NCBI RefSeq assembly: GCF_025698545.1
Contig: NC_068569.1
Span: forward strand, 9,114,001 to 9,178,000
DNA: 64,000 bases
Origin: Gossypium raimondii
Taxonomy: Eukaryota > Streptophyta > Magnoliopsida > Malvales > Malvaceae
Reading direction: 5' to 3'
In this document: in pieces, positions 1 to 58,436 of the stretch
How the letters are laid out: every line of letters begins with the position of its first letter
Position numbering within the stretch: the first letter of the stretch is position 1
Translations under genes and position numbers: made by a program
The notes under the pieces: generated by a model
Database searches by the model: none
What the model was told of the DNA's origin: nothing
The model's input: only the letters and a program-made list of their open reading frames with translations

Positions 1-3000
1 TCTGGTTTAACCAAGTCAGGTTCCTTCTCAATCTCAGCATTTTCTTGCTTACGAAGACCACCAAATTCATCACTTGTAATAGGCTCAGCATCAGATTTCT
101 GTTTGCTAATGTCTTCCAAAACATCCTTCATCTCAGTAATAACAGGACTACCTTTAGCAGAACTCATGGGGACATCCGTCTTCACTTCCATAGGCTCAGA
201 TTTAACTGGCATACGCCTGTCAACATATCTGTAATCTTGACGCTGGATATCCTGAGATATGTGAGTTTCAGTAACAACACAACCTGATGCTAAAGGACCT
301 TCACTTTTAGCAATAACTGATTGAGAAGATTGTTCTATCTTCATGCGTTTCAATGAAGGCTGTATGTCTACAGAAGTGTCAATTGCTGCAGATGTAGAAG
401 TTATTCTAGTTGAAATGTCTCCAGAACTATCTGTTTTCGTAGATATACTGTCCGATGATGGCAAGATGGAAGTAGAGTTTAGACAGGCACGTGCCTTCTG
501 AGCCTGTACATAATTGTTAACATGAACACAAACAGGGCAGGCTGGATATCTACAAGTCTTGTGATGACGGATCAATCTCTTGGAATGATGGCAACGAGGA
601 TATGAACATTGAGATGATTGACATGAATCCATATGAGATAACAATTTTCGTACAGTAAAGCAATAGCCATCACACTTGCCCTCAGATGCTTTACATCTAC
701 GAGCATGGCGCAGTAACAAAAGCCACCTCACTTGATTTCGGAATTGCCTGTCATGGCTCCCACTTCCAGCACCCCTCGAATTTGAAAGATTCGATGAGCT
801 TTTAGGAATAGTGGATGCACCGGCAGATAAATTATTACATTGAGCTTCATCCTGCCCAGATATTCTCTGCTGGAAATCCTCTTGGACGTGCTGCTCGCGT
901 GACATGTTCACTGGCATTTGAGACTGCTCTTGTGAGTGAGGGAGCCACTGGCCCTGCACAGCTGATTCTGGCGGTGCTCCAGCTGAAAGTTTATAATCAT
1001 TTTGCGACTCCGGAACCAATTGGTGTTGGTGCAACATCTGTTGCATTTGTTGAGAATTTTGTGGAAGCGATGAATGCATATCCTGCTGACTAGAGATCTG
1101 TTCAGCATGATTCTGCTGGAATTGACTCTGCGATTCAGAAAGCTGAAATTGTCCAGAAGCTTGTTGATGTAGAACCTCGCCATGGAGTTCCACTCCAGGT
1201 TCATGCTTCACTTGACTACCTATATCAGAAGCCATCTGAGGCTGACTATAACCACTATTATTGCTCATCAAATTTTGATGCTGCTGATTTTGCTGTGGAT
1301 GGTGTTGCTGTTGCAGAAACTGCCGTTGCTGGAACTGAAGGGACCGCTGCTGGAACTGTTGCAGCTGATTAGCTTGAAGGACATTGTCTCTCGAAGAAAC
1401 TGGAGGTTGGAAATTCATCTTTTCAAAATTATCCATGGACTGCGGATTCATATGGGCAGCCGATTGCATACCATGTAAATTTGACTGATTGCTTATCAAA
1501 GAAGAATTTGCTCTGGATATAGACTGCAAATTGACTGGATCTGAATTCTGAGAGTTTGTTATAGATCCAACAGATGTTGCAGAGCCATACAAGTTTCCAG
1601 ACCCAAAAGAATCAGCATTGTTCATTCCATATCCATCACCTGACACAAATCAAAACAAATATATATTTGCTTTCCTTAAGAAAAACTTGAATATTTCAAT
1701 AATAAATCGCATATTCAGATTCATTATTACTAAATTAAAAGGTGATAGAGAGGAAGAAATAAATTCATAAGGTTACCTTGCATCAGGGGTCGCTGATGTT
1801 GATCAAAGTGTTGTTGCAAAGGTTTTGGTGAATTAGCAAAAGGCGTGGTAGTCTGATATCCTCCAGAAGTTCCTGGTTCATTAACAATGAGCATATTGTT
1901 GCCCATCATCCCCAATGCACCATTTAGGGAAGCATTAGGAAACCCAAAAGTTTTCTGCTGCAAGCCAGACCTGATGCCACTACCTATTTGGCTGCCAAGG
2001 GTGTGCAAAATACGACTGTTTTGACCACCATGTTGCTTTTGCTGCTGTGGCTGAGATGACATCGTTGATTCAACAGTTGAAAGTCCAACATTATTGGAAG
2101 ACTGATTATTAATGCTATTGTTATTACTATTCAATCCAGGAGTGGGAATCATTTGGCTTGCCATTCTTTGCACACCAATTGATGACATTCCACCAGAAGC
2201 AATATGAAAATTTGCACTTGGATGTTGATACCCATTAGATATATTTCCTACAAAAGTACCAACCTGTTACCCTCGGAAAAAAATGGTATTAAAATATAAT
2301 TGTAAAAGAAGGTAAGGCTCAAATTTACCTTCAGATCTACTGAAGGAACCACTATTCATGCCAGCAGTAGGCAACAGACTTCCTGTATTGACATTCGTAG
2401 GAGGTATGCTTGCATTGGCAGCACTCATAGATGTATCTATAGAAGATGTAACCATGAGGCTAGGATTGCCACTGTGTGACAAGCCAGGGGTCGGTATCAT
2501 TGTACCAACTGGTGCTGATCCCGAATTAACAAGCTGAGCATGTCTTTGGTTGTGCACATTTCTACTATTCCTTATTAGAATCTGTAGACGTTGCTCTAAA
2601 GTACTCAAATTGGTGTAGTCCTCCTAGAAAACAAACTTCAAGTGTTAAAATTCGCCCCGGTTTTTTTTTCTCTTTCGGGGGATTAAGAAAGTTGTACACA
2701 TACAAATAAATGTGATCAGACGAATGCAAAGTAATGTGCTTCTACAGAGTGAAACAAATAAATTTACAAGTGTAATGGGTCCAACCTTTGTGCGTGCAAT
2801 CTTAAATAAACCTTCTTCCAACCGTCTTGCAAAATCCTGAAACTTGATCATTGATGCCTCGGTAATAGGATGTTGCTGGCGTGATTTTAAAAACTTAATG
2901 CTGGAAAAGAAGAGATAATAAATTGCATTAGTTAACCAAAAAGAACGCTACACATAGATATTATAACAAAAAATTCTAAGATGGAAATGCCCATCTTGAT

Positions 3001-4045
3001 ACATAGATTGACCAGATATAGAAGCTAAATAGCAATAATGATGATATAAAATCAATGACAAAAGAAAATTTCTATTACATGTAATATAAATATTCATCTG
3101 CATATCAATGTGAAATTATATAGTAAAGATAGGATAATAACATACATAGACACCACGTAATTGAAGTCTTAACACACACACACACACATGGAGATAGGTA
3201 GAGAGAGGGAGAGGGTTCTACAACTTGGTATTGAACCAGAACATCAATGTATATCCCAAAAAGAATCAACATTACCTACAAGGTCATAAAATCCTACACA
3301 AACAGATGGACAACTATTTAAACCAAAAGATCTTTGTCAGTCTTTGTTCGCACAACAAGCTGACCTATGAATTTATGTGAAATGTCAACATCTAAATCCT
3401 ACAGCCTTCATGCAATTGAGTTATTTTGTATGGTAAATTTTAAGCATATTTAGTAGTAGCAGAAAATCAAATACAAACATTATCTCAAGTCTCAACTAAA
3501 TGGTGCAAATTACACTGGTATGGAACTAAAAAAAACAAAAATGCCACCATTCATAACAAAAGAATGTTACTAAAAGGCAACCAAGCATTCAGCAGCAAAA
3601 GCAAACCCCAAACATGTACAATTGTATATGCAGACACACAAAAAGAAAACAATGAAAAGCATACAAATATTGGTATTAAACAGCACTCAAACACCACTCA
3701 CTCAATGCCCAAGGCAGATTATATTTCAAATTTCTCCTTAATTCAAAACGAATCAGATAGCATATACCAGCATTTAATACAACACAGAAAAAGAAATCAA
3801 AACTATTGGTATACAAAATCTTACATTTCTCCCCGCATGTAATCACGTGTTCTCATCAGGTCAGGATCCATATTCAACATATTATGTGGAGGACCACTAC
3901 TGCCAAGAACACCAGAAACACCTCCAGCAACCCCTAAATTCTGCATCTGGGAAGGCTGAAGCAGGTTCCCATTTTGCTGGGGTAACCCCCCTTGATTAGG
4001 AACCTGTCCAGATATCTGTCCTGACATATGCGTCTGCACATTCAT
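1..4045 (-). CDS. HAC1: HAC1-type CBP/p300-like histone acetyltransferase, N-terminal part
   Basis: Nuclear co-activator that acetylates histones; plant HAC proteins are the p300/CBP class. Coding exons read on the minus strand: 4045-3825, 2900-2786, 2623-2329, 2247-1777 and 1639 to the window edge, all with GT-AG borders and continuous phase, giving about 913 residues. The start MNVQTHMSGQISGQ is typical of plant HAC1. Residues about 74-150 (SRQQHPITEASMIKFQDFAR, then LEQRLQILIR) look like the KIX-like segment. A long Gln/Asn/Ser-rich part follows, with repeated MIPTPGL motifs. A TAZ1 zinc finger lies near residues 666-742, with a regular His/Cys series in RHARRCKASEGKCDGYC and PRCHHSKRLIRHHKTCRYPA. 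The PHD, catalytic, ZZ and TAZ2 parts would lie beyond the left edge. The family is about 1,700 residues, so roughly half is seen. HAC1 versus HAC12 cannot be decided here. Confidence 0.93.
3172..3188. repeat. (CA)n microsatellite
   Basis: Short run of about eight CA units inside intron 1 of the HAC1-like gene. Confidence 0.8.
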
Positions 4046-4740
4046 TTCTTTCTATATTCCTTCTTCGTTTTCGCCTTGTCTTGGTAACTACCACTACTAG
4101 AAAAAAACCCATAACTTATTCCACAATCTCGCTGTAAAATCGCACCATCCACCACCACTCATGCTTCCTTTTTTTCCCCCTCCTCTAATTGTCATTTCGA
4201 ATACTGCAGTTTTACAGCATATCTGTATCTTATGTACCCTGCTTATAGACATACAGGAAAATTGAATAAATTAACCCAAATTTCTATGATTCAATCTCAA
4301 TTTAAAAAACATCACATTGTTTAACAACATTGAAACTGAAATTAGCTAATAATGAAAATTAGGGGAATTTCGATCAACGAAGCAAGAAAATCCCCAATTT
4401 GGGGATTCCTGGATAAAATGCAATACTAATTAGTGAATTACGCAGTAAGCAAGAACTAACCCTAGGTTAATAAATGAAAAGATAATAATTTCCTAAAACA
4501 ATCAAGAAACGAAAACCCTAAAAACCAACCTGAGGAAAAATACAAAATCAAAGCAGAAGCAAGAGAAGCTACGAACGAAGCCTCAGGAATTCCGATGGTA
4601 AGACCCAGAATCGCGAGGACGATGATGGCGATCGGAAAATAAGAAGGGAACTAAACACTGCCTGAATCGCACGTGCGTTCAATACCGAGACACAGATGAA
4701 GAAAAAAACAAGATCGAAAAGAGAAAGGGAAAGTACGGGC
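4046..4740 (-). promoter_or_regulatory. 5' leader of the HAC1-like gene, probable leader intron
   Basis: On the minus strand a pyrimidine-rich leader runs from about 4730. A donor-like CAG/GTTGG lies near 4530 and an acceptor-like TTTTTTCTAG near 4101, so a 5' UTR intron of about 430 bp is likely. The start ATG at 4045-4043 follows GAAAGAA. No cDNA evidence is available. Confidence 0.45.
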
Positions 4741-5469
4741 GACCGGAATTAATTTTTCTGGGCTTGGGGTCTGAATTTTTTTTAAAAATAATAAATAATA
4801 ATTTTAGATTAATCTTTTTTTGTTCTTTTTTCCTACAGCGAAAATAGAAATTTTAAGTATGCATTTATAGCTTATTTGACGTCGATGATTTTTTCTTTTC
4901 TTTTGAAGTAATTTTTTCTTTTAATTCCTTCAGGGTTCTTTTTAAACATATTTTTAATTTCTTAATTTTATAAAGGAGGATAATAGTGATAGTTGTAAGT
5001 TGTAAACAATTAGACGCGCGGCTGCCGCAGGTGAATATACTTCAATGCTTCATTTTCTTTTTATTTTGATATTATTCAATGGAAAGTAGTAAGTAGGGTA
5101 ATATTCAAGATGCATAAATTATAAGAAATGAAGGATATTTATTATGTATTAGGGGTGTCGAAATAATTTGTTTGATTAATAACTAATTATTCATTTAAAA
5201 ATAATTAATTGATTAGGCCCAATTTTCTTTTCTTTTTTTTTATTACACCTTTTGTTTGAATTTGGTATATTTTTATTATTTTCAGTTAATTTATCCCCGA
5301 GAGTTGAACCAATACAATACATCATCAAAATTTCAAAGAAGATAAAAAGTAATTCGATTCTTATTTATCACCAACTAATTACACGTTAATAGACTTTCTA
5401 AACTATTTTATTTTCACCAGGGCATTTGAGAAAACAAAAACAATAAATAGAACATAAAAATAAAATCTT

Positions 5470-5625
5470 TGATATGCCGATTGAGTCTTAACTCGATTAA
5501 CATAGGTATTGTTGTCAGTGCATGAGTATATGAGTTTAAGTGTACTAAAGCGCATTATCCTCCTATTTAAGGGTTGGGGAGGGACTACGGATAGTTATAG
5601 GCATCATATCAAAAATAACATATAT
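5470..5625 (+). mobile_element. SINE-like element
   Basis: A piece with a box A-like stretch (GAGTCTTAACTCGATTAACA) and, about 40 bases on, a box B-like GAGTTTAAGTG. The downstream words GCGCATTATCCTCCTATTTA and GGGTTGGGGAGGGACTA resemble, from memory, a tRNA-derived SINE common in cotton. No clear target duplication or A-tail was seen. Confidence 0.4.
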
Positions 5626-6405
5626 GGTAAAAAATTATAATATTTGAAATTAAAGGACTACTAATAAGCTGACTTCTTTTCTTACATGAGTTAAATCGGT
5701 CATTTTTTTTTTCTGAAAATTTTTGATATAATAACTTATTAAGAAGTTTTTAATAAATTAATTAAATAATTTAATGATGTTTATTTTCAAAGTGTTACAA
5801 AACTCTAAAATAAATTTTTAAAATGCTTTGATTTATTACCAAATTTCAAACAAGGGTAATGTATAATCTTGAGTTACTAATACATTTGCTAAAGTATAGA
5901 TAAAACAATCTAAAAGACAGTATTGATGATAAAAAATTTCGTGCTCTATTAAACACTATAGCTGAAATAAATTTGTCTGAAATAAGTTACTCAATATCAA
6001 TTTTTTACTTTTAAAACATATAATCTCAAACATTATCATTATTATTATTTATTAAATTCTAAAAATACCAAATAATTTTTAGATTAAATAAAATTATTTA
6101 TATTTACAACTTGACACTTAAATTGTATTACCATTAAATTGTTTATAAAACTTATATTTAAAAGCAAACAATGAGTTTCTTTTTTTCTATATGATTTATG
6201 TTTATTTATTAATTACATTACATTAAACTATTTATCGAATTTTAAAAGCTATAATTAATTAATTTGGCCACGAAAAGGTATAATTAATACCATGAAATAA
6301 AAATGTAAAAAAGGAACACCAATAATGCATATTCATGTGTTGTGTACAAGTGCAACATATGTGATTTTATATGTTGTTTACTCTTAACTGTTAACGGGAT
6401 CAACA

Positions 6406-6431
6406 TGTACGTACGTACGTATGTATGTATA
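6406..6431. repeat. GTAC/GTAT tetranucleotide microsatellite
   Basis: Tandem GTAC units passing into GTAT units. Confidence 0.8.
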
Positions 6432-6740
6432 TACACGAGGAATTAGTGTAAAATTTAGTAGTTTCCCCAGTGACAAGTTAAGCAGATTAACCAAAAAAGC
6501 AATGAAAAGAATCTTCTATTAAAGAAATGAAGAGATGGTGCGGGAGTCAAGAGACTGGAGAAAGCTTTGATTAAAAGCTCTGTAGATTTGTATATAATAT
6601 ATAAATGTTCTCTTGACAAGCAAAACAAGTTAAATTCGCAAAACAAGTCATATTCTGATTATAGTCAGATTCTGATTATACGACTCGTAGAAGCAAAACT
6701 ACGATCGATGATTACGCTTACAAGTCTGAGAGTTCATCTC

Positions 6741-9215
6741 CTACACAACATTTAGCTCTTTGAGCCATGCTGTATGCAGAGGACATGGATCTGGTTTTCC
6801 CTCAGCAATTGCCTTCTCAGAGATTGAGTAGAACCATCCATTCCTCCACTTGAACTGTATGAATATGAACAATAATGTCTTAGAAAGGAACGCACAAATT
6901 ATGATACTCATAAAGTATATTCCTATATCGTGACCTGCAGTTTTTTACCTCTTTAACTGCTGTTGGGAAGTGGGCCACAGCTCGAGAATAAGCACATAGC
7001 CTATCCTCCATGGCTTCTTCAAATGTTATACCTTTCTCCGCTGCAGCAGCAGATGCGAGCTCTGCTATGAGGCTTGACACCTGAAAACTTAGATTTCAGG
7101 TCTTACGGTCAACTTATAGATACAAAATCAGCAAGGCTGAGAGATTTGAAGAACAAATAGTTTAAATAACAATATTTCTGTATCTATTCACCTCATGCCA
7201 TAGTTTTGCCAGTTCTAAAACGATTGAAATGATATTTTTGTTTGAGATTTTATTTTTAGGAAATAAAATGGGAATGGTGTGCACTTCCACAAAATTAATG
7301 ATCCAACTATTTACTACTGAAAAGAAAGCTCCACCTCAGAGCGGTATTCCTTCTCTGCAACGCCTACAGTTGCCCCAGGATGACGAGCTCCAACAAGCAT
7401 GAATGCACAAATCCATATGAGCTTCTCCAACATCTGCTTCTGAAATGCTTCTTTGTCAAGAACCTGGTCAGACAAACCCGAAGAAAATACAGAATAAAAT
7501 TTGTTAGTGGCACTTAAGGCTTGCTCTCAATAGTCAATTTATTTCTCCAATGTGATCCCTAAACCTACAACTTTATACCGCTTTAATCCACTAGTTAGTA
7601 GAACCATCCACCATGACATGAACACTCTTAATCACCAATAAGGAAACAATACCACAAGAACAATAATCAATTGGCCAAATCAAATAATGATTCAATTATT
7701 GCCCAACTTCCTCTTTCACCATGCCTCTATCTATATGAATGTCAGAAAATTTCAATCCCTTTCTTGTATCTATAGGTGTTGCGTATTTCCCTTCCTTCCA
7801 AAGGCGGGAGGAAAACACTCTTTCATTTCACTTAAATTAATAATTTTATTTTGAACTTTACCCCTAAATTTCTTTCTTCCCTTCTATTTTCCATCATTCC
7901 TATCAAAAGGAAAAGCAAACTTCCTTCCTCTTTTTCCTTCTTTTTTTCTTTCCTTGCTTTTCTCCATTCCTACCAAAAATAATACCCTTTGGCCAAAAAG
8001 AGAAAAATGTTTGAGCATGAACTTGACATGAAGAAAATGTTCATTGGCCAGTAGTGCACCTTTTGGAGGATAAGACTCATGTTACCCGGGCTTGTATGTT
8101 TGTGTCTAATACCTGAGTTGGACACAAATTTCGACATAGCTATGGAAATGATGCTCCAAATACATTGAAAAACTTAAAAAAAGAAAAAGAAAAAAAGAAG
8201 AAGGTATAACTGTGTCAGATAGTCAAATAGGATAATAGAAAAAATATATCTTTTACCTTGCAAGAGAGGCCTCCAGCATTTAATCTGGTAGCTATAGCAG
8301 ATGCCCATTTCCCATATGCTGCAGTTAGACCTTCAGGATTTGTGTCAGTCTTGCCATCAATAGGAGGTTCTCCAAGCTTCGCTACAGCAAAATATGCCAG
8401 CACCTGCTCTGCATCATTAAGACCTTTGCTTTGAAGCCATGGCTCCAGCATGCCATTCTGGAAAAAAACCAAATCTGCTAGATCATCAACACCCAGTGGT
8501 TGATCAAATAATTTTGAATTGAATAAAAAAAACTGGAAGTCAAATGAGAACGAATAAACATGGCATTAGTACATAAATTACGGAGGAAATCAGCACGAAT
8601 AACAACGTAAGTCAACTATGTAATGATACTCGATTTTCATCCATTTGCTTAAAAAAAGTTCATTGAAAGTTGAAAGACCAACAAGGAACAGAGCATTATT
8701 AAATTTCCACATAAAGCTCCAAACTCCATTGAATCAAACTGTTTATAAGGAATATAAAAAGGGGATTCCTCATAATCATCCATAGACAATTAATCAAAAA
8801 CATAACAAAAGATGAAACCATTTTAAAATAACCAAAATGAGCAAAGAGCAGGTATGATTGAGGCAGAGGTACCGTTCCAACGAGATTTAGGAGTGGCCTC
8901 AAGCACAGCCTCAAGATCATCATTCCTAGTACAAACCAATATAGGACCTTCAAAATCAAGCGGTACTGCTTCACCTCTCTTCACCAGCAAATCATCTCCC
9001 TTGCCCATATCTTGCAATGCTTTTCCCACTCTTCCACCACCAACAATAATTGCTGGCACCACCTCGGTAGCAGTAGTCGCAGGGGGAGCAGCCATAACAA
9101 TGGAGGAGGACTTCTTTGGAGTGAAAAAGCGTGTAGCAGTGAAAAGAGCGAGTTTGGGAGAAATCGGTTTGGGCGAATGGATCCAAAGGAGAGAAGAAGT
9201 AGAGAGTGTGGCCAT
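6741..9215 (-). CDS. Plastid-targeted Rossmann-fold protein (ketopantoate-reductase-like), function unknown
   Basis: Five exons: 9215-8873, 8474-8257, 7463-7335, 7080-6949 and 6854-6741 (TAG), giving 311 residues with all phases consistent. Residues 1-40 are rich in Ser/Pro/Lys and start MATLSTSSLLWIH, as expected for a chloroplast transit peptide. IIVGGGRVGKAL (GGGRVG at 59-64) is a dinucleotide-binding loop. Then come PILVCTRNDDLEAV and FFQNGMLEPWL, and a helical C-terminal half (EKLIWICAFMLVGARHPGAT, PLHTAWLKEL). This layout recalls 6-phosphogluconate-dehydrogenase/ApbA-type reductases, but I know no proven substrate. A plant-wide single-copy protein of this kind (At1g16080, from memory) neighbours TLP8 in Arabidopsis, as here. 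ATG at 9215 was chosen over upstream in-frame codons because those are not ATG. It faces away from the tubby-like gene. Confidence 0.85.
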
Positions 9216-10749
9216 GACGTTGGGTTCGTTGGTTGGTTTGGTGGTGGGCTTAGAGGCATGGGTGCTTTGTGCTTTTTGTTTATTGAGTGATAAGCGACAA
9301 GAAAGAAGAAGAGAACCACTCGATTCATGGGGTGGCCTTATCACTTCCTGAATTCTATCCGAAGTATGACATTCGGGAGGTAAGAATCAGCACCGGGTGC
9401 TAGTGTGCTTCTGGCCAGACAAAAAAGCCTCCCCAACAAACCATGTCGGATCTCTGGACCGGGCTACTTGCTTGGCCCAGAAAATCTGATCTTGGACAAA
9501 AGTTTTTGAACTCAGCTATCCGATTTTAAATAAATTTAAAGTAAAATTGATTTTACGTGTCAAAATAATAATTTAGCAACCAGAACATTGGGTTCTATAG
9601 TCTCTTTCAATGGCAATAATTTTTTAGTTGACTTGCTTAAAATATTAGGTGTACTCATAACTGCTGCTTCATAGGTTGATTTTTAGCTTACTGCCAAGAT
9701 TGTTCTAATTCTAAATAAGCTAAATTGTTTCAATTTGTTATAGTATTTCTTGTTAATATGAAATCCAAACGTAATTTGAACTATCGACCCATACAAAAAA
9801 CCTGTGTCCCATAAGGTACCCATGCATGTTATTAGGGTTTGCAGGTAGAGAGTGCGAAGTCAAGCACGTGGTATGATAAATATGTGTTAAATTTAGAGCA
9901 ATATACGTGTTAGCTTGTATGAAGCCTACTTAGAACGTCATCTCGATGAATAATAACTGTATCTTATAAATACCTGATTCCCCTAGGACACACAACAAAA
10001 ACACTCAACAAACATGAAATAAGTGTGGATGGTTATTACTTATTACACTAGTAAATATATTATAATAAAAATATTATTATTGGTTGTATTTTATATTTTT
10101 TCCCTCTATTTGATGTTAATATTTTTGTCTAGGTAAAAATAGAGAGTTTAAAATATTTTCCATACCTGATTGCTCCTGTGGATTATGCCTAGCATAGATT
10201 TTAATGACAGTACCTGTTCATCGAGAACCCTTCTAATGGCAACCAACAAGTGACCCCATTTAACATTCAAAACCCGCCCTTTAACCATAAAAATCATATT
10301 CCCTTTTTAGAATTATTTATTTGGAATCATAAATTCGTAAAATAGACCAAAAACATGGAATAATTGATTCAGACCATCCGAATATATCCTTACATCTTTT
10401 ATATTCAAAAGTTTCAAACTCTGTTCCCGCTTCTTGTCCATGTAAACAAAATAGTCAAGCCCAAATAATCTGTAATTAAGAACCGGTTGTCTTTCTTAAT
10501 TTCCACCGTAATCCCTCCATAGTCCATACACAAAAGGACAACAAGCTTTAAACAGTTACCGTTAACCTTTACCAAACACTGCGCATCTCAAATTCCACAC
10601 ATTTCCCTATACCTTTTTCTTTATTCAAATTCAAAACCCTTTCCTTTCAATTCAATTTGAAACCTTCATTTCTCAAACAAAGGACTGGCTCTCAAGCAAG
10701 CTGACCAAACCCCAGAGTTCTAAATCTGGTCCTCCGTTCTCAAACAACA
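9216..10749. promoter_or_regulatory. Shared upstream region of two divergent genes
   Basis: The spacer lies between two genes read outward: the Rossmann-protein gene to the left and the tubby-like gene to the right. The last 200 bp before 10750 are C/T-rich, as in many plant leaders (for example CCCTATACCTTTTTCTTTAT). I saw no other gene and could not place TATA boxes with confidence. Confidence 0.4.
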
Positions 10750-12988
10750 ATGGGTGAGTTGAAGGATCCTTTAGTTCAACGCCAAGCTTCATGCAATGCT
10801 CCGTATGTTAATCCTCTCATTGACCTCAAACACAACCGCAGCTGCAGTGAAGGGAACCCTGCATCATTTTCAGACAACAAGGAAAATGTTGTCTTTGGTG
10901 CTGGCAAAGAAAATGCAGCTCCTTCAACAAATAATGGGTCTTCTTCTTCTGAAGCTGCTAAAAAGACTACTACCCATTTGAAATCGCTGTCCACTATTGG
11001 TACTTTCGATGCTTCCAAAGAAGTTACAAGTTACAAGTCTCTGTCCACAGGGAAGGTCTTGAAAGAATCGTCCCTTCAGTTCTGTATGCAAATGAATGAA
11101 CCTGACAAGGCTTTTGGGTGCAAGTTATGGGACCCCATAGATTCAGACAATTCTGCTTCTTTGAATATTTGGGATTACTCGGATTCCGAAGCCGCCCCGG
11201 CTTCTTCTTGGTCTACATTGCCCAATAGGTCAGTCTCTGAACACAGCCTACTGCTTTTGCTGCTAATTCATGTCGTGTTTCTTACAAGTTTTTCTAATCA
11301 CTTATAATATGCTGGATGGTTAAAGTTTCAAGTCTAGTTGATATTTAGTTACATGTACAAAGAGGAGAAGCGTGTTTAAACTGGGAAAGATGTTTTGTAT
11401 ACCCTTTTTATTGATGTGTTGTATTTGGTGGCTTTTGTTTTAGGGCGCTGTTGTGCAGGCCGTTGCCACTGGACATAGGAAGATGTACTTGTGTTATTGT
11501 GAAAGAACCCTTACCTGATGGGTTCCATGGCGGCACTCTGTTTTCACTTTATACCAATGTAAGATCTCTTTTGACTTGTTAAGAACCCTGGTAACCTTTT
11601 TCAGTTTTTTCTGTAAGATCATCTGGATCACCACTTAGAATCCTTTCATTTTTATGTAATGAAACATATAATGAGCTGCACTAATTCTTTAGTTCAGATT
11701 GTGCAAGACGCATTTACCAGTACTCTTTTACATTTGATCTATTTGGCATTTCAACACGACAGGAAGGTAAAGGACGACAGGATCGGAAGCTAGCGGTGGC
11801 TTATCACAAACGACGGAATGGGAAATCAGTGTTTGCCATAGCTCAGACTACCAAAGGAATACTGTCTAATTCTGATGATAGTTGCGTTGGACTCATGACA
11901 GCTAACCTTCTTGGATCAAAATACCATATATGGAATCAGGTTTGATCTTTAAAAGGTTAAACCTTCTATAAAATGGCCATCAAATATAGGGAACAATCCT
12001 TACTTCAATTGGTTAATAACTTGCTTGGTTGCAGAATGGTCGAACCATGTCATCAAACAAACAATCTAATCCTCTCTTGGGTGTTGTAAGGTAACCCTAA
12101 CATCCCATCTCTGTCTAAGTTCATTTCCTTTTCACTCTCTCCCTTTTGATTTTATTTACTTCTTTAGGTTCATGCCAACCATAGCGACATGGACCGGGAG
12201 TTACCGAAGCATGAAGGCATATATACCTAAGCACCAATCAATGCAGCTCAAGAATGTGGCTCAGGTAGCTCAAAGGATTCACTTTCTCGATCATCCTTGA
12301 CGGGGTGTTTATTCCCCTTGTGTTAATTTGGATACTCTATTACTGTGGAGCTAAAAGAGAACATAAGATAGAAAATCTCTTTGCTTTTATGTAGATGCAA
12401 CACATTAATGGACTACCGAAGGACTGGGAGGAGAAAATGGACAAAATCCACAAGTTGTTCTCAAGGATTCCTCGTTACAACAAAGTAAGATTTGGGTTTC
12501 TGTCTAACCCTGTATTTCTCATCATAGAAAACTGAGGTTTCGGACTTGGGTTTCTGTCTAACCCTGTTATTGCTTTCTGTTGAGTCAGATGTTGAAACAA
12601 TACGAATTAGACTTCAGAGAAAGGGGAAGAGCTGCTGGACTCAGAATACAAAGCTCAGTAAAGAATTTTCAGCTGACATTGGAGGTATCATAACGTTTTT
12701 AAACACTACTATTAGCTATGTATATACAGCAAATGCATCTGTACACAAACATTTGCAAAAAGACTTAACGCAGGGATACATGCAAAGTGTGCATGCATGT
12801 GATGGGAAACTCGTATAAATTTAACTCTGGAATTGGTTTTCTAGGAGAACGGAAGGCAAACAATTCTTCAGCTTGGAAGAGTGGATAGATACAAGTATGT
12901 TATGGATTTCAGGTATCCACTAACAGGTTACCAAGCATTTTGTATATGCTTGGCTTCAATTGATTCAAAGCTTTGTTGCACTATGTAA
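10750..12988 (+). CDS. TLP8: Tubby-like protein without F-box (TLP8 type)
   Basis: Eight exons: 10750-11228, 11444-11558, 11763-11939, 12035-12090, 12168-12264, 12395-12484, 12589-12684 and 12845-12988 (TAA), 417 residues, phases consistent. Residues 1-158 are Ser/Asn-rich and of low complexity (DNKENVVFGAGKENAAP). The tubby C-terminal domain runs from about residue 163 (RPLPLDIGRCTCVIVKE) to the end, with IWNQNGRT, LQLGRVDRYKYVMDFRYPLT and the closing ICLASIDSKL. Tubby domains bind phosphoinositides and may tether the protein to membrane. Most plant TLPs carry an F-box before the tubby domain; none is visible here, which matches Arabidopsis TLP8. It shares its upstream region with the plastid Rossmann-protein gene. 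Confidence 0.9.
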
Positions 12989-15900
12989 TTGAAGAATCCC
13001 CCAACATTTTGTTCCTAGTTCAACCTCTGAACCGAAGTTTCTTTCCTAGTTAAAAAAAAATTGACCATTTTTTGTAAGAAAGTGACAAGCTATGTAAACA
13101 AGCTTAGATAATGATGCTTAAGGTTTTTAAGAATCATAGCTTGAATCCTAATTCTACGTACTCCATTTATTACTAAGGTAGCATTTGGTGTTTTCACATA
13201 TTATAATTCTAATGGAATGTGATTTTTGGAATATAAGTACTTATTAGGAAGGTATTGATTAAAATCCTAAGAAAGTTAGTTTATTAAGAATGCAATAATA
13301 ATTTATGAATTTACCCATATTAAATAAAAGATAATATTCATGGATTTAATTATTCTTACCAAATATTTGAATTAAATATTTAATAATAAATTTTAATTGT
13401 TATTTTTAATTTTCTTAATTTTAATTAAAAGGAAAATTGTCTTAAATGTATCCTACATATATTTTCTAAATGTAAGTAATATATATATAAAACTTGGAAA
13501 ATTTATGCATATATAATACTTATGAAGAACTCATTGAAGTAATAGAGAAAATGAAGTAGTAAGACAAAGGTATCCTAAACCAATATAAAAGTTAATATTA
13601 TCTTAATATTTTTTAACTTTCCAATTTCTTACATTTTATAATGAGAATTACATTGCTATATTTGTAACAAAAAAAAGAAATTTTTTAAATAAAGTAAATA
13701 AAATTTGACATTCCAAATATTAAAATCACTTTTTTACTCATTAAATTATTAAGAAAATGACCATTTTCTAAAATTGGGTTAGTTTAAATTGGATTAATTT
13801 ATTCCTTTCCAAGTCAATGAATTCAACTCCCACTTTGCTAAGCAGTCACCATTCTTCCCATGCAGAAGTAATCGCCATCCATGCTCAAACTATTATTTTA
13901 ATAGTTTTATTTAAATTTAATCATAATATATAATATTAATATTAATATTAAAATATTGTTTTAATAGTGATAACGAACTATTGCTATCCATGAACAATAA
14001 AATTCTAAAAATTTCCATTCACAGCCCAACCCATCCTCCTGACCACATATATCGCTACCGACAACCATAAACCAACGACCTTATGAAAACCAATTCAACA
14101 AATAAAACGACGCAACACCCCAACAACTAGGCAACGTTGCTTGCAATTTGCATGCCTCACAACTTACAAAAGCAAAAACGCAGAACCATACTTTGAAAAT
14201 AAATAAAAAGCACGGCCAAAATTAAATACATGGCTCAGGCTTGGCAACAGCTACCAAATTACAACACTGATGTTTCCTTTTCTTTAATTAATTCACATGC
14301 CCAAATGCTTCTCCCCTAATTTCCTTTTTTTTCACTTTAATTATTGTCAATCAAGTTTCTTAGCCATCAAACGTGATACACCAATAAATTAGATATATTG
14401 TATTTAATGTCGATTTTATACGTTCCTTTTTCTTTCTTTCTTTTTTAAAAATTAAATTAAATTCATGAGTGGAGATTAAGTTTACAGTTTCCTGTTTATA
14501 GCACATCGTTAGTTTCAGTTTCTTTAGTTACTCTTCACATGAAAATAAAGAATGAATAATTATATTTAAGAAATACATAAGGTAGGTAAAAAGAATGTCC
14601 ATATCAATATTAATTTTGAATAACTCAATATTGTAGCTGATGGATGGACAAACCATTAAAACGTGATAGTAAAATATGATTTGACGCAAAATATTAAACA
14701 CAATATAATATATCAATGTTTTAAATTTTATATGAATTATTAATATATATTTTGAAAGAATGAATTATCAACCCATTAGAATTTATTCAAATATAATAAA
14801 TTATGATATCTAACCTTTGTGGGCATTTAATTTAACAAGAAAAAGTAGATGTACGCTACCTATCTAAGAATTTCCATTTCATTAATTAACACCGCATGCG
14901 TAGCCTTCTCAATTTTCAACCTTCAACTCCTAACAGCAAAAATTGTTGGTTTAATTGGGCAGCTCTCATAGATGTCATTTGGTCTTTAACACATGCAACT
15001 CACCATGCATGCATGCATCACATTGCAAATCATAATTCCCTATTTTCTTACTAATGATTTTCATCTTCACGTTTTACAGACAAGGACAATGTTTGGAATC
15101 TTTTGAATGGGACCAAAATAAATATATATAATTTTAAGATCAGTCAAAGTTATAATTTTTAACTAAGCCAAAAAAAAAAAAAAACTAAATAATATCTTTT
15201 AACAATGTAGTGGAGAAGAACCCTTTAATTTTCATATATATCATACCAATAAAAGAAAAATATATCTTCAATGTATGGTTGCTACTTATTTTGCATATGT
15301 AACTAAAGGGTTTTTTTCCTCGAGGTTCTAGATGTTTTACATTTATTCTAGAAGAGTTAGTTTTACGTCTGTTCTTTAGTATTTATTTATAAATTGATAA
15401 ACTTATAATTTAATGAGCTTGTTGATTTTGATGCGAATTTACTTTATACACTACTTCATAAATCAGTTAGTTTTTATTGTATTTATTATATCGACCTGTT
15501 GATTTTTAAATATATATAACCTAGCAAGAGATATTATAACTCTCTAATTCCGTTGTGAAATTGAAAAGTCCCATTAATTAATAGTATATTAGAGAAGCTT
15601 TCAAAGTTTATTGGGATTTAGTAACTGTGATAAGTTATGTTGTTCTATAAGAAAGTAATAATAATAGTTTTAGGATCCGCCACTCTCAGCAGTAAAAGAA
15701 ATAGAAGAAAAAGATGCAAGTTTTTTTATTTATTTCGCGTTGCTAGAAAAGGATGCGCAAAACCAAAATCGATATTTTTTAAAATAAACATTTAATAGTT
15801 CTATTATAAGACGTGTAATAGATATTGAAGTTAAAATTAACCACTAATTAGTAAGATATGAAATGAAATTTAAACATGAGTACGTGACATAAAAATCTAA

Positions 15901-17571
15901 AAATAATCCTATAAAAATCAAAACGCATTTTATAGTTAAAAAAATAAAAAATACATAAATATACAAATATATCCAAGTCCATCTGAAACAAATTATTAAT
16001 GTATAAAATATTATATAAATTGATTAACTTTTACATGAAAAGAAACATATATTTTCTCTAGAATCATTACAACAAATAATGCAAAGATCCATAAAATATT
16101 TTACAAACAGGAGATTGATTGAGAAACAATATAATGATATAAACACACAATTTAGTTTTTAAATCGAATCACTTTAAGAAACTATGCAAATACAATGAAT
16201 ACAAAAATGATATGCACAACATTGTACATATCAATATGTCAAAGATTTATATAAAACAAACTAATTATGCAAAAACATTAACATAACTCAATCACAACAT
16301 AAAAACGAATCATTATGTTTTCAACACAAAAAATTTGTAATAATTTCCACTCGAACAGAATAAAACGTTAAAAACACAGTTTTCTTTTTTTTTTTTTAAA
16401 TGACTTTCACCTGAAAATACCAAAGAAGGTAATTAAGATGGTAACTTTTAAGTTGTTGTATAGATTTCGCTTTTTGAAAATACTTCGAAAGAGAAAATAC
16501 AAAAAGGAAAGACGTATTTGATATGCCACTTTCATTCTTAGTAATGAAAACCAAAATTCTTGCTCGTGAATCATGCGTCATCTATATATTTTTTCTGCAT
16601 ACAAGGAAAAATCGTGATCTTGAGTTGTGGCTATTATTTATTTATTATAAATTCCTCTCTTTTTTTTTTGAAATTATTCGAATAAACCGTATGTTTCTTT
16701 TGAAGGAAAAAAAGGTTTGATACGTTTTGGAAAACAGGAAGCAAATGACCATGAGCAACAGTCCCTAAAAGTTTGTCCCTTTTCCATTATAGTTCACTTA
16801 TAAAGATAATGCTTTACATAAATAGAAATGTCAATTAAAAAATATGATTATTAATGAAGCAGTATGTTTTCATTCATAATCCATTTATTTAATGGAAGAT
16901 TAAATTTATTAATATATAAGAAAAGCTTGAAGATAATAATAAAAATGTTGCACTAATTTATTTATGTGAACGAGTCCAGATAATATTTTTAATGAATTTT
17001 ATATTTTTAAAAATGCTGGGACAAAAATGTTAAACCAAGACTAATTTCAACCGAGGACTTAGAGGTCAAAATGTGAATTAAACACAATTTGATGCATTGT
17101 TCAACAATTCTAAATCATTTCAAATATTAAGGTTTTTTTTTTTTTTAGAAATTATCAGTTAACTCAAATTAAATCTTTAAACTGATTGTAATCAAATAAG
17201 TCTAAATATTGATAATCAACCAAAATCAAATAGTCAAAGCAAGCTAAAGTAGAAGTGCCTATCAATCTCAGTCAAAAAATAAAATTAAGAATAAAATGAT
17301 GATATTATTTATCTCGGAGAGCATAACTTCAAACCGAAGCCAAAAGAGAGTAGAGAAAAAACCGCTTCAAGACGGCCAACACATCCTTGTATCAACAGTC
17401 TCTCTCCCCTTCTATTTTTTTTCCCCTCAAACAAAGACCTTAACCTTTGTTTTTTCCTGGATCCTTTGAAATCGTTTCTCATTCTTTTTCCCCTCCCATT
17501 CTTAAGGTTTTCAGAGTGAGGGTGTGTGTTTGTTACTCTTGACCTCAGCTTTTTCTGTTTTTAGTTTTTTG
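12989..17571. other. 4.6-kb AT-rich intergenic region
   Basis: No gene recognised. Long A/T runs and short scattered reading frames only. The stretch from about 13165, after CTAAGGTAGCATTTGGTG, has the look of a MITE end, but I found no matching inverted end. Short CATGCATG runs occur near 15005. The last about 200 bp are the pyrimidine-rich leader of the AP2 gene. Confidence 0.55.
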
Positions 17572-20090
17572 ATGGCGAAAATCTCACATCAAAACCAGAA
17601 GAACGGTTCGGGTAATGAAAAAACTGCTGCACAACCTACAACCAAACTCAAGCGCACTCGTAAAACTGTTCCCCGTCACTCTCCTCCCCAACGTAGCTCC
17701 ACGTATCGAGGCGTTACTAGGTAATTATTCATACATACATACATATATATATAGTTATAAGGGATTGGTGATCTTTCTTGGCGAGTTTGTTCATTCAAGA
17801 TATACGGACAGTCTCAATTCTAATTTTATTTTGCTTTTTCTTTTCTTTTGTTTTTCTTGGCATTCTGTTTTGATTTCTCGATGGTTTCATTAATCAGGCA
17901 CCGATGGACAGGGAGATTTGAAGCTCATTTGTGGGATAAGAATTGCTGGAATGAATCGCAGAAAAAAAAAGGAAGACAAGGTAATAATAATAACTATCCT
18001 TCTTCCTCGCCCAATTTTCCTTTGGTTTTTTTTATACAATCAAACTAACAGTTCAAATTTAATTCTGTAAATTTCATGGTTGGTTTGGCTTGATGACGAG
18101 ATCGAAACTGAAATTAATGCAGTGTATTTAGGTGAGTTTTGATCACCTTGATGATCTTTCTTTTTCCCCTCACCCTGTTTAATAGACTTGTCATTGTCAA
18201 TAGCTATGTCGAAATTGTAGAATCCATTTGATTTTTGCCTGTATCAGAATTTGATGGAATTCATTCTTTTCGATGTATTGATATTTGATTAGGTGCTTAT
18301 GCGGATGAAGAAGCGGCTGCACATGCATATGACTTGGCTGCATTGAAGTACTGGGGACAAGATACTGTCCTTAATTTCCCAGTATGTTCATTTCAATGTT
18401 GGATTTTTCTTCTTATATACACAGACTTTATATGTTTCTTTTTTGGGTAAAAGATAATTCACTTTTGGCTTACTAATTCTGTTGTAGTTAGCCACTTATG
18501 AAAAGGAACTCAAGGAAATGGAGAGTCAATCAAAAGAAGAATACATTGGATCTTTGAGGAGGTAATACTTCAAAAAAAAGAAAAGTGTAAAGAATACCAT
18601 TAATCAAAACTTTATCGTTTAGAAAAAAAAACATATATATATATAAAATAATTAGAGTTTTTAATTCATTTATACATATTTTTGGTTTAATATTTAAAGG
18701 AAAAGCAGTGGATTTGCTCGTGGGGTCTCAAAATATAGAGGCGTGGCCAGGTTTGATCCTAACTCATAGAATTAGATTTAAAATTTAAATTTGTGGGGTT
18801 TATTATTATGGCCATTTAAAACTTTTTAAAAAAAAATCCACTTTGTAGGCACCACCACAATGGAAGATGGGAAGCTCGGATTGGCAGAGTATTTGGCAAC
18901 AAGTATCTCTATCTTGGGACATATGGTAAATTTTTATTAGTTAATTGCTTTCTAAATTTCCAATTAAATTAGTGGGAGGCTTTACTTTATAAAATCAGAA
19001 TACATGGTTATATGTGTGTAAAAGGAAAACGATGGGAATGAATTGTAATAAAATCCAGTTGGTTGAGATATTGTTTACCAAACTTCAACAGCCTCGCCTA
19101 CTGAGCTATTTAAGATTTGAAAAAGTCAATTCAACTAAATCTCCAACCCTCCACCCATATCTGCATGCATATTTAGTTCTCCTTTATTATATACATTAAT
19201 TAATTTAGATGGTTTTAGTTGGTTCGTGTCTTCTTTTCTAAACATTTCACATCACTCTGCAGGTTTGGTTATCAAATTTCATCATCTATACCATTTTTTT
19301 TATCCCTAAACTACTTTTACTTTTCTTTAAAACTTTCATATTTAATATAAGTTGATATGTTGTCATTCAGCTATAATTCGCCAATTGCTAAAACATCTAG
19401 TAATTATATATATTTATTAATTTATTGATGATGTGTTTTAATATAATTCACTATACTATATAGTGTAATAAATAATTATTTATTTTAAAAAATATATTAT
19501 TATGTGTCATAATTTGTTGTAATTCTTTCTATAACTTTGATATTTGTTATTTTTCAGCAACACAAGAAGAAGCAGCGATGGCTTATGACATGGCTGCCAT
19601 AGAATACAGAGGACTCAATGCGGTTACGAATTTTGACCTAAGTCGTTATATCGGTTGGTTACATCCAAATGACCAAAGTGATTCCAATAACTCTTCAAAC
19701 CCTCAACAAAACTTTAATGGTGACACCAATTCAACCCCAAGTCCTAATCATGACACGAAGTTAGAGATTTCCATCCAATCTCAAACTTACTGTACAAGTG
19801 ATACGCGACTAGACGACAGCAATAGCAATGGCAGCAGTAGCTCAGCCTCATCGGCACTAGGGCATTTGCTGAAATCATCAAAAATTAAGGAAATGTTAGA
19901 TAGGACATCGGAGGCTGCATGTCCATCAACGCCGCCCGAACCTAACGTACCTCGTCGGAGCTTTCCGGATTATATTCAAACATACTTTGATTGTCAAGAC
20001 TCTAGCAGCTACACTGAGGATGATGATATTATTTTTGGCGACCTAGATTCGTTGGCGATACCCATGTTTCATTGCGAGCTTGATGGGTAG
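17572..20090 (+). CDS. WRI3/4: AP2-type transcription factor of the WRINKLED family (WRI3/WRI4, ADAP)
   Basis: Eight exons: 17572-17720, 17898-17980, 18123-18131, 18293-18381, 18488-18561, 18700-18750, 18849-18925 and 19558-20090 (TAG), 354 residues. First AP2 domain at residues 45-110 ([20 protein letters not shown]), second at 147-204 ([20 protein letters not shown]). Exon 3 is only nine bases (TGTATTTAG) and encodes the V-Y-L of the first domain (78-80); this microexon is known from WRI1 and other AP2 genes, and VYL is needed for WRI1 function. The C-terminal half is Ser/Asn-rich with an acidic patch ([15 protein letters not shown]) that could activate transcription. WRI factors switch on fatty-acid synthesis genes; WRI3/WRI4 act mainly in floral tissue and stem, WRI4 for cuticular wax. 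WRI3 and WRI4 cannot be told apart here. Confidence 0.92.
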
Positions 20091-57031: not shown

Positions 57032-57103
57032 ATTTTTACCAATTTTTATAATTTTATAAAATTTATAAGTATTTGTTAAGCATGACATGAAAGATAAAAT
57101 AGT

Positions 57104-58427
57104 GGCTTAATGGTATTTTTGGCCCTCAAACTTTTTTAAAAAAAGCAATTAAGTTCCTTTGAACTTATTGCACCCAATTGAGTCGTAAACTTATAAAACA
57201 AACTACATTGGCCATTTTGACTAACGATGATTGTTATAGAGTTGACACCACTGTTAAAGGCTTTGACATGGTGCTCTATGCCAACGACAATTGTTGAAGT
57301 CAACAAAAATAAAATTAAAAATGATTATTTTTTTGCTGGAATGAACCTAGATACATATAAAATTCTATGGAAAACCATATTCGATGAAAATCGTATGTAC
57401 GGCTTGGAGGAAGATCTTTCATACCTTTCGAGATCCACCCTATAAGATGGGGTCAAAAAGCCAAAATAAATGATTTTATCCCTTGTAAAAAGAAAATAGA
57501 TTATTGAACCCCTTTCACGCTCATGCCACGTTGAGGTATTGCAGAAGAAAAAACTGTAAAATTTGCTCCAATTTATCGTAATCGATTAGTTAACATGTTG
57601 GTTAACCGTATTCTAAAACATGAAAAAAAAATCATTAGCTTATTAAATTATCTACCGAGCCTTGAAAAAGATTCAACAAAAGAGAAACAAATTCACTATC
57701 TATTTTACGTCAAGCAAGACGTAGAGTAACTCCCAATATAGCAATAAAAGCAAGACGTGTAGGTGGATCGAAAATTGGATCTAGACAAAGAAAAGCACTT
57801 ACCATTCCTTCGTTTCAAAGCTTAATTTTTTTAATTTAAAAAATATTTTTATAAAATTAATTTTTTAAATATATAAATTTTAAAAAATTACTTAAAATTT
57901 ATAATAATATCAAATAAAAATCAGAAAGTTCAAAAGAAAATTAAAATTTCATAAAAACCATTTAAAAGTTAAGTTAAAAATTCTAGACAATTTTTCTAAA
58001 TTATATAAAGTTTAAAAGTCAACTTTTAAATGATTTTTATAATTTTATTTAATTTTTATAAATTTTAATAATGTTTTAAAAATTACAATTTTAAAAAAAT
58101 AAGTTTTAAAAGTTTTAAAATTTAATTTTTGAAACGAATGAACTAGGACAATCATATGTCTAGTTTCATTCCAACAAAAAAAATTAAAAAATACTCCTTT
58201 TAATTTTTTTTATTTTTCAAAAAATAATTTTTTTAAATTTTTACTAGCGTGACACGTCGTCAGCAACTATGATTGACATGGAGTGCCATTTTAGTATTGT
58301 AACAGTCAATATTAATTAAAGAGCCTATTTGGCCAATTTTATTAATTCATGGTTCAATTGGGTGCAAAAAATTTGGAACAATTTAATTGATTTTTTTTTA
58401 ATTTCAAGGGCCAAAAACACTTAAGCC
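57104..58427. mobile_element. Mutator-type foldback MITE with 9-bp target duplication, carrying plastid DNA
   Basis: Ends are GGCTTAATGGTATTTTTGGC on the left and, read in reverse complement, GGCTTAAGTGTTTTTGGC on the right. Flanks are TAAAATAGT (57095-57103) and TAACATAGT (58428-58436), 8 of 9 identical, the target length of Mutator elements. The arms pair along nearly their whole length: TTGCACCCAATTGA occurs in both, TTTGCTGGAATGAACCTAG pairs with TTTGTTGGAATGAAACTAG, and CCATTTAAAAGTT with TCATTTAAAAGTT near the centre at about 57990. Without the plastid piece both arms are about 430 bp. No transposase is present. Confidence 0.8.
57347..57808 (+). pseudogene. Nuclear plastid DNA: 3' end of rps12 (intron end and last exon) and 5' part of rps7
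   Basis: From CTAGATACATATAAAATTC on, the sequence follows, from memory, the plastid rps12 second-intron end (AGCCGTATTCGATGAAA-like domain V region), then the last rps12 codons (TATGGGGTCAAAAAGCC-like, ending AAATAA), the spacer with CTTTCACGCTC, and rps7. The rps7 frame starts at ATGCCACGT but has TGA as codon 4, then [10 protein letters not shown] and [20 protein letters not shown]. Later it loses frame, and about 15-20 bases are missing after GTAGGTGGATCG. The copy cannot encode S7; plastid copies are the working ones. It interrupts the left arm of the foldback element. Confidence 0.85.
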
Positions 58428-58436
58428 TAACATAGT

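Follow-up and report, generated by a model that had tools for sequence, protein, structure and literature searches.

A non-autonomous Mutator-like element (MULE) in Gossypium raimondii carries a piece of plastid DNA within one of its two long arms, and this piece most probably got there through repair of a break in the element where it stood, with about 20 bp lost within a palindrome of the arm, plastid rps12–rps7 sequence taken in as filler and decay thereafter. The element occupies positions 57104–58427 of the window, by which we mean the 64,000-nucleotide stretch C5:9114001-9178000 of an assembly of 750.8 Mb in 281 contigs. As the earlier note had described, it begins with GGCTTAA at 57104, ends with TTAAGCC at 58427 and is flanked by 9-bp repeats, within the 9–11 bp expected of a Mutator-like element, TAAAATAGT on the left (57095–57103) and TAACATAGT on the right (58428–58436), which agree at eight of nine positions. 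The left arm has an outer part (57104–57351, plus strand), recognised from the arm and palindrome alignments and from at least 44 match rows in the same genome including itself, and an inner AT-rich part (57809–57920, plus strand), recognised from the arm alignment. The right arm (58023–58427, minus strand), which also has matches elsewhere in the genome, is uninterrupted. The outer arms align with 157 identical positions, 36 mismatched ones and 53 in gaps. Their score is 81, where 300 dinucleotide shuffles reached at most 47, and the inner arms scored 100, the highest of as many shuffles being 76; together with the palindrome alignment described below, this gives the element the long terminal inverted repeats of a MULE. 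The arms had been said to pair over about 430 bp each; the pairing holds, but the arms reach only to about 57920 on the left and 58023 on the right, or about 355 bp without the insert and about 405 bp, respectively. Folding the element as DNA with and without the insert, a comparison that the earlier note had proposed, placed it far below its shuffles both ways (−183.6 kcal against −102.5, s.d. 7.6, for the whole element, and −146.1 against −66.7, s.d. 6.9, without the insert; 10 mononucleotide shuffles each), and the insert alone was ordinary (−37.1 against −32.2, s.d. 5.1; 10 mononucleotide shuffles).

The arms belong to a family of at least 89 loci in this genome, the window locus included, a lower bound obtained by merging match rows within 3 kb. 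Genome searches were made with the left arm (at least 44 rows; 40 of 157 first-look candidates scored), the right arm (at least 48 rows; 40 of 89 scored), the arm of a relative (at least 59 rows; 40 of 138 scored) and the arm of a relative on C9 (30 rows; all 30 scored), each count including the query's own place. Among the best 40 scored candidates per window arm, no match exceeded 88% identity and none exceeded 84% over 100 bp or more. Target duplications were found at L077 (nine of nine), at L042 (eight of nine) and around a pair of family ends on C13 (eight of nine); an automatic scan of 35 sequences called a pair at eight or more only in L077 and L042, most of the scanned loci containing one end only and L078 failing even though it has both. 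The C13 ends lie 27 kb apart (C13:35765320-35792256; about 6 of the 27 kb were read) and enclose a broken FAR1-MULE-SWIM transposase, its domains in separate frames (PF10551, E 1e-28; FAR1, 3.4e-14; SWIM, 1.4e-6). MULE domains are common in this genome, with 2055 first-look candidates or about one per 365 kb, so that chance enclosure in a given 27 kb is about 7%; the C13 locus is probably a coding relative of the family. Because this end pair encloses the transposase, and from the 9-bp duplications, the family is very likely Mutator-like, as 'Mutator-type' in the earlier note had implied. MULEs with long or tandem terminal inverted repeats, as described from other plants (PMC3310237), share with it the 9-bp target duplication, the long repeats and the tandem ends seen in a C9 cluster; the family differs from that general description, with which we compare it rather than with named families, in having palindromes within its arms. 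The cluster, at C9:4.97-5.24 Mb, holds L022, L024-L028, L030, L033, L035-L038 and L048 within 270 kb, many of them with tandem terminal repeats about 110–165 bp apart, and could be a local burst or a segmental duplication. Another family end, L080, lies at C9:36469036, with a MULE domain 11 kb off at C9:36480505-36480786.

Only the left arm carries the additional block of about 460 bp, and its reading as chloroplast rps12–rps7 sequence was correct. The block (57348–57807, plus strand) comprises the end of the rps12 intron, rps12 exon 3, a spacer and the first part of rps7 with stops, an assignment based on matches to plastid copies, the stops, the substitution spectrum and an intron domain. 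We take its start to be rps12 intron 2, followed by rps12 exon 3. A degraded group II intron catalytic domain lies at 57370–57443 on the plus strand (RF00029, 39.3 bits against a gathering threshold of 40, E 4.4e-5); at Rfam's own threshold there was no match. Among at least 37 genome match rows, itself included, the nuclear plastid copies that match the insert best do so at 86% identity. One relative, L002, has an open frame matching Pfam Ribosomal_S7 (E 3.2e-30), and the insert's own rps7 frame is interrupted by stops. Contig C179 was considered as the plastid genome and rejected, with a stop in its rps7 stretch as judged by eye and nine repeat-rich pieces (about 89 of 169 kb); we therefore used the majority of 37 aligned nuclear rows, in which the rps7 frame is open, as a stand-in for the species' plastid genome. 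Against this plastid-like majority the insert has changed at 38 of 459 bases (8.3%), 27 of the 38 changes being C>T or G>A, and it has lost 2 bp (consensus 395–396) and 18 bp (consensus 486–503). With its plastid homology, nuclear flanks and decay, the insert is an old nuclear plastid insertion (NUPT). Such divergence and two deletions mean that it is not a fresh plastid read, and a misassembly that fused such a read with a nuclear element has nothing found in its favour and deserves practically no credence. One end of the C179 query also has 180-bp matches at 98–99% on the unplaced contigs C281, C246, C198, C107, C228, C223 and C241.

NUPTs are reported to total about 2.07 Mb in G. raimondii (PMC6852956), and end joining of breaks has been suggested as their route into the nucleus (PMC3989485). 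The insert resembles them as short, decayed plastid DNA in a chromosome; it differs in sitting within the palindrome of a transposon arm. The earlier note had held that it would be refuted if the plastid piece turned up in many unrelated places lacking the arms. This is in part the case: the plastid stretch was listed at 43 or more loci, the window included, with only two near a detected family locus, but the window copy does sit inside an element arm. The insert therefore has the origin of an ordinary NUPT and differs in its seat; by itself it amounts to a common kind of NUPT in an unusual place.

The donor was not necessarily plastid DNA itself. It is possible, if unlikely, that an older nuclear plastid insertion, for example the one at C7:26306132-26311226, supplied the template for the filler: the window and L049, which is part of that insertion, have seven derived bases in common against 2.1 expected under a site-weighted null. 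This places the pair fourth among 235, and a transversion among the seven bases is present in L002 too. However, the two share no deletion, the window's losses at 395–396 and 486–503 not being listed for L049 or L073 and that of L049 at 320–367 being absent from the window, and the excess of shared bases could reflect repeated mutation or an old plastid variant. The C7 locus is a plastid insertion split by 3.9 kb into L049 (C7:26306132-26306940) and L073 (26310833-26311226), whose halves overlap by 9 bp on the query, as expected from a 9-bp target duplication.

What the arm looks like without the insert can be seen in the opposite arm and in relatives, and the lost bases and the joints can therefore be read. 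In relatives the insertion point reads approximately GAATGAACCTrGACatatGgTTGTCCAAGTTCATTC, an imperfect palindrome. It aligned without plastid DNA inside in 19 distinct segments (21 before identical ones were removed) from 14 of 33 family loci, L079 on both strands and some segments, such as that of L042, degenerate, as well as in the window's right arm, where the 36-bp counterpart lies at 58136–58171 (−7.0 kcal when 45 bases spanning it are folded as DNA). This alignment confirmed that the right arm is uninterrupted and that the insert replaces about 20 bp of the left arm, within the 36-bp family palindrome. The outer left arm ends with the 5′ half of the palindrome, GAATGAACCTAGA (57339–57351), from which the sequence passes into plastid DNA from TAGATACATAT and then into CATTC-C-TTCGTTTCAAAGC. 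Short words shared at the joints, TAGA on the left and CATTC on the right, had been read as signs of end-joining repair. The left word stands: TAGA at 57348–57351 is common to arm and plastid, a 4-bp run of a kind (four or more) found in 2.8% of random junctions. The right joint (57803–57811, CATTC-C-TTC) is messier, reading CATTC-C-TTCGTTTC in the window. There CATTCGTT is common to the family arm and the plastid sequence, which occurs in 0.03% of random junctions, although the arm tested is the family majority rather than the true ancestor and CATTCGTT is not unbroken in the window. Because the window has extra or changed bases there, the joint is ambiguous and can be read as a 1-nt filler, as a G>C change with a 2-bp overlap or as a 4-bp duplication at CATTCGTT. 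When gaps are allowed, the similarity at the two joints stands out less, at 0.7% and 1.7%.

On these observations, a long-armed, foldback-like, non-autonomous Mutator-like element would already have been present at the site when a double-strand break arose within the 36-bp palindrome of its left arm. About 20 bp would have been lost at the break, and either end joining or gap filling guided by microhomology would have sealed the gap, with about 480 bp of plastid rps12–rps7 taken in; the patch would then have decayed like other NUPTs, through C>T and G>A changes and the 18-bp and 2-bp deletions. The transposase would have had no part in the insertion, and the patch has presumably not moved since. 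The first of two readings offered by the earlier note, that a foldback hairpin attracted organelle DNA during break repair, agrees with the seat in the family palindrome, the small deletion, the 4-bp word on the left and the finding of no second copy; that the palindrome made the break likelier, with the hairpin as its cause, is what we infer. A random NUPT might instead have landed in a common transposon with the palindrome irrelevant, which would leave the break-repair step intact and dispense with the hairpin, and this is a serious possibility that we only mildly disfavour. Plastid pieces are plentiful, with 43 listed loci for the insert's stretch and 37 for a neighbouring stretch, and a 30-species study found no consistent link between NUPTs and any one transposon superfamily (PMC12572781). 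The palindrome motif covers about one-tenth of an element, and for a single insert to fall in it is not improbable. Against a random landing, the joint falls inside the family palindrome, and in a C9 relative a 34-nt inverted repeat has a plastid piece between its two halves. Hairpins containing G+C cover 0, 12.6, 8.6, 10.6, 0, 0 and 25.3% of seven family sequences (the last being L050 with its flanks joined), against 1.8% of window positions 1–20000; none was called in the window's own right arm, L022 or L026.

Of known mechanisms, break repair in place appears to fit best with transposition-independent gap filling, with plastid DNA as the filler. In that model an internal break, perhaps aided by secondary structure, is patched with filler DNA (PMC8277862). 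The Pack-MULEs and single-copy Pack-TIRs ascribed to it there share with the window element an internal break possibly at secondary structure, filler with short microhomology and a single copy; the differences are that here organellar sequence serves as filler, placed within a single arm and not between the two, and that the cited set comes from animals. For the use of plastid DNA as filler in the arm of a transposon, the element offers a clean case that can be dissected. We searched the literature for MULEs or foldback elements that bear plastid DNA and saw none by title, which does not prove absence from print.

The earlier note's second reading, that a Mutator element now moves plastid sequence, is not supported, because no other plastid match found has the window's joints. 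None of the 43 other listed rows has the insert's two end points (best 40 of 341 candidates scored), and at the joints no copy of the window arms occurs in the flanking sequence of 34 plastid loci, which account for all 36 other rows of the 37-row search; with neither joints nor end points matched among the listed matches, we found no spread of the plastid piece in the assembly. Family arms were clear beside L050 and weak beside L055. A Pack-MULE would hold non-transposon sequence between its terminal repeats, with a parental copy elsewhere; here related sequence exists elsewhere in the genome and the insert lies inside one arm, and the matches returned include no mobilised copies with different target duplications. 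That the element captured plastid DNA and then took it to new sites is very unlikely: a second family member, near C9:34655 kb, bears the same plastid region, but its piece corresponds to query 491–760 rather than 502–987, lies elsewhere in the arm as judged by eye and lacks the window's joints, which occur in no match found.

That C9 member, L050 (C9:34654244-34656102, plastid 790–1059), carries its plastid piece at C9:34655033-34655302. The arm to the right of the piece matches 29 other rows (best E 5.7e-26), and the piece together with 39 other bases separates the halves of the 34-nt inverted repeat, which are 82% complementary; its left end and target duplication were looked for at the locus and not found. 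A third case, at C10:45809900-45815261 (L083, L072, L081 and L055), has plastid pieces (45811-45815 kb) bounded by arms whose pairing extends over 487 bp at 71%. The C9 and C10 cases suggest a recurrent pattern, in which palindromes in the arms of this MULE family, or in foldback arms generally, would act as traps for organelle DNA, hairpin-prone sites breaking and being patched with plastid fragments; we regard such a general trap as improbable. If it were real, the transposon family would mark where and how plastid DNA enters the nucleus, and if palindromes in foldback arms were preferred entry points, NUPT insertion would be tied to a predictable type of break. The 89 places, at an assumed 1.3 kb each, make up about 0.015% of the genome, and the 42 other plastid loci are therefore expected to give about 0.007 coincidences by chance; the family count is a lower bound, and a tenfold or thirtyfold undercount would raise this to 0.07 to 0.2. 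For the neighbouring plastid stretch, none of 37 loci (from 41 rows, less three on unplaced contigs and with one pair counted as a single locus) lay near the 88 typed family places.

An inverted-flank test of 29 loci against 812 mismatched left–right pairs gave P = 0.007 for the window, 0.004 for the C10 locus, 0.032 for L050 and 0.036 for L051, where one or two values near 0.03 are expected from 29 tests. With four of 29 loci standing out, a general link between NUPTs and inverted flanks was rejected. The 29 remained of 36 sequences after seven were dropped: L003 consists of plastid DNA throughout, the joined C10 locus stands in for L055 and L072, L073 is the latter part of a split copy, and the flanks of L002, L057 and L063 are short. 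The AT-rich 'INNER' matches seen beside many NUPTs look like low complexity and were set aside. The C10 element is a more distant foldback relative that, as judged by eye, ends in TATAAGCC and has an eight-of-nine duplication; a later insertion of 2.3 kb, starting with TAACACCC and ending with GGGTATTACA, split its plastid piece.
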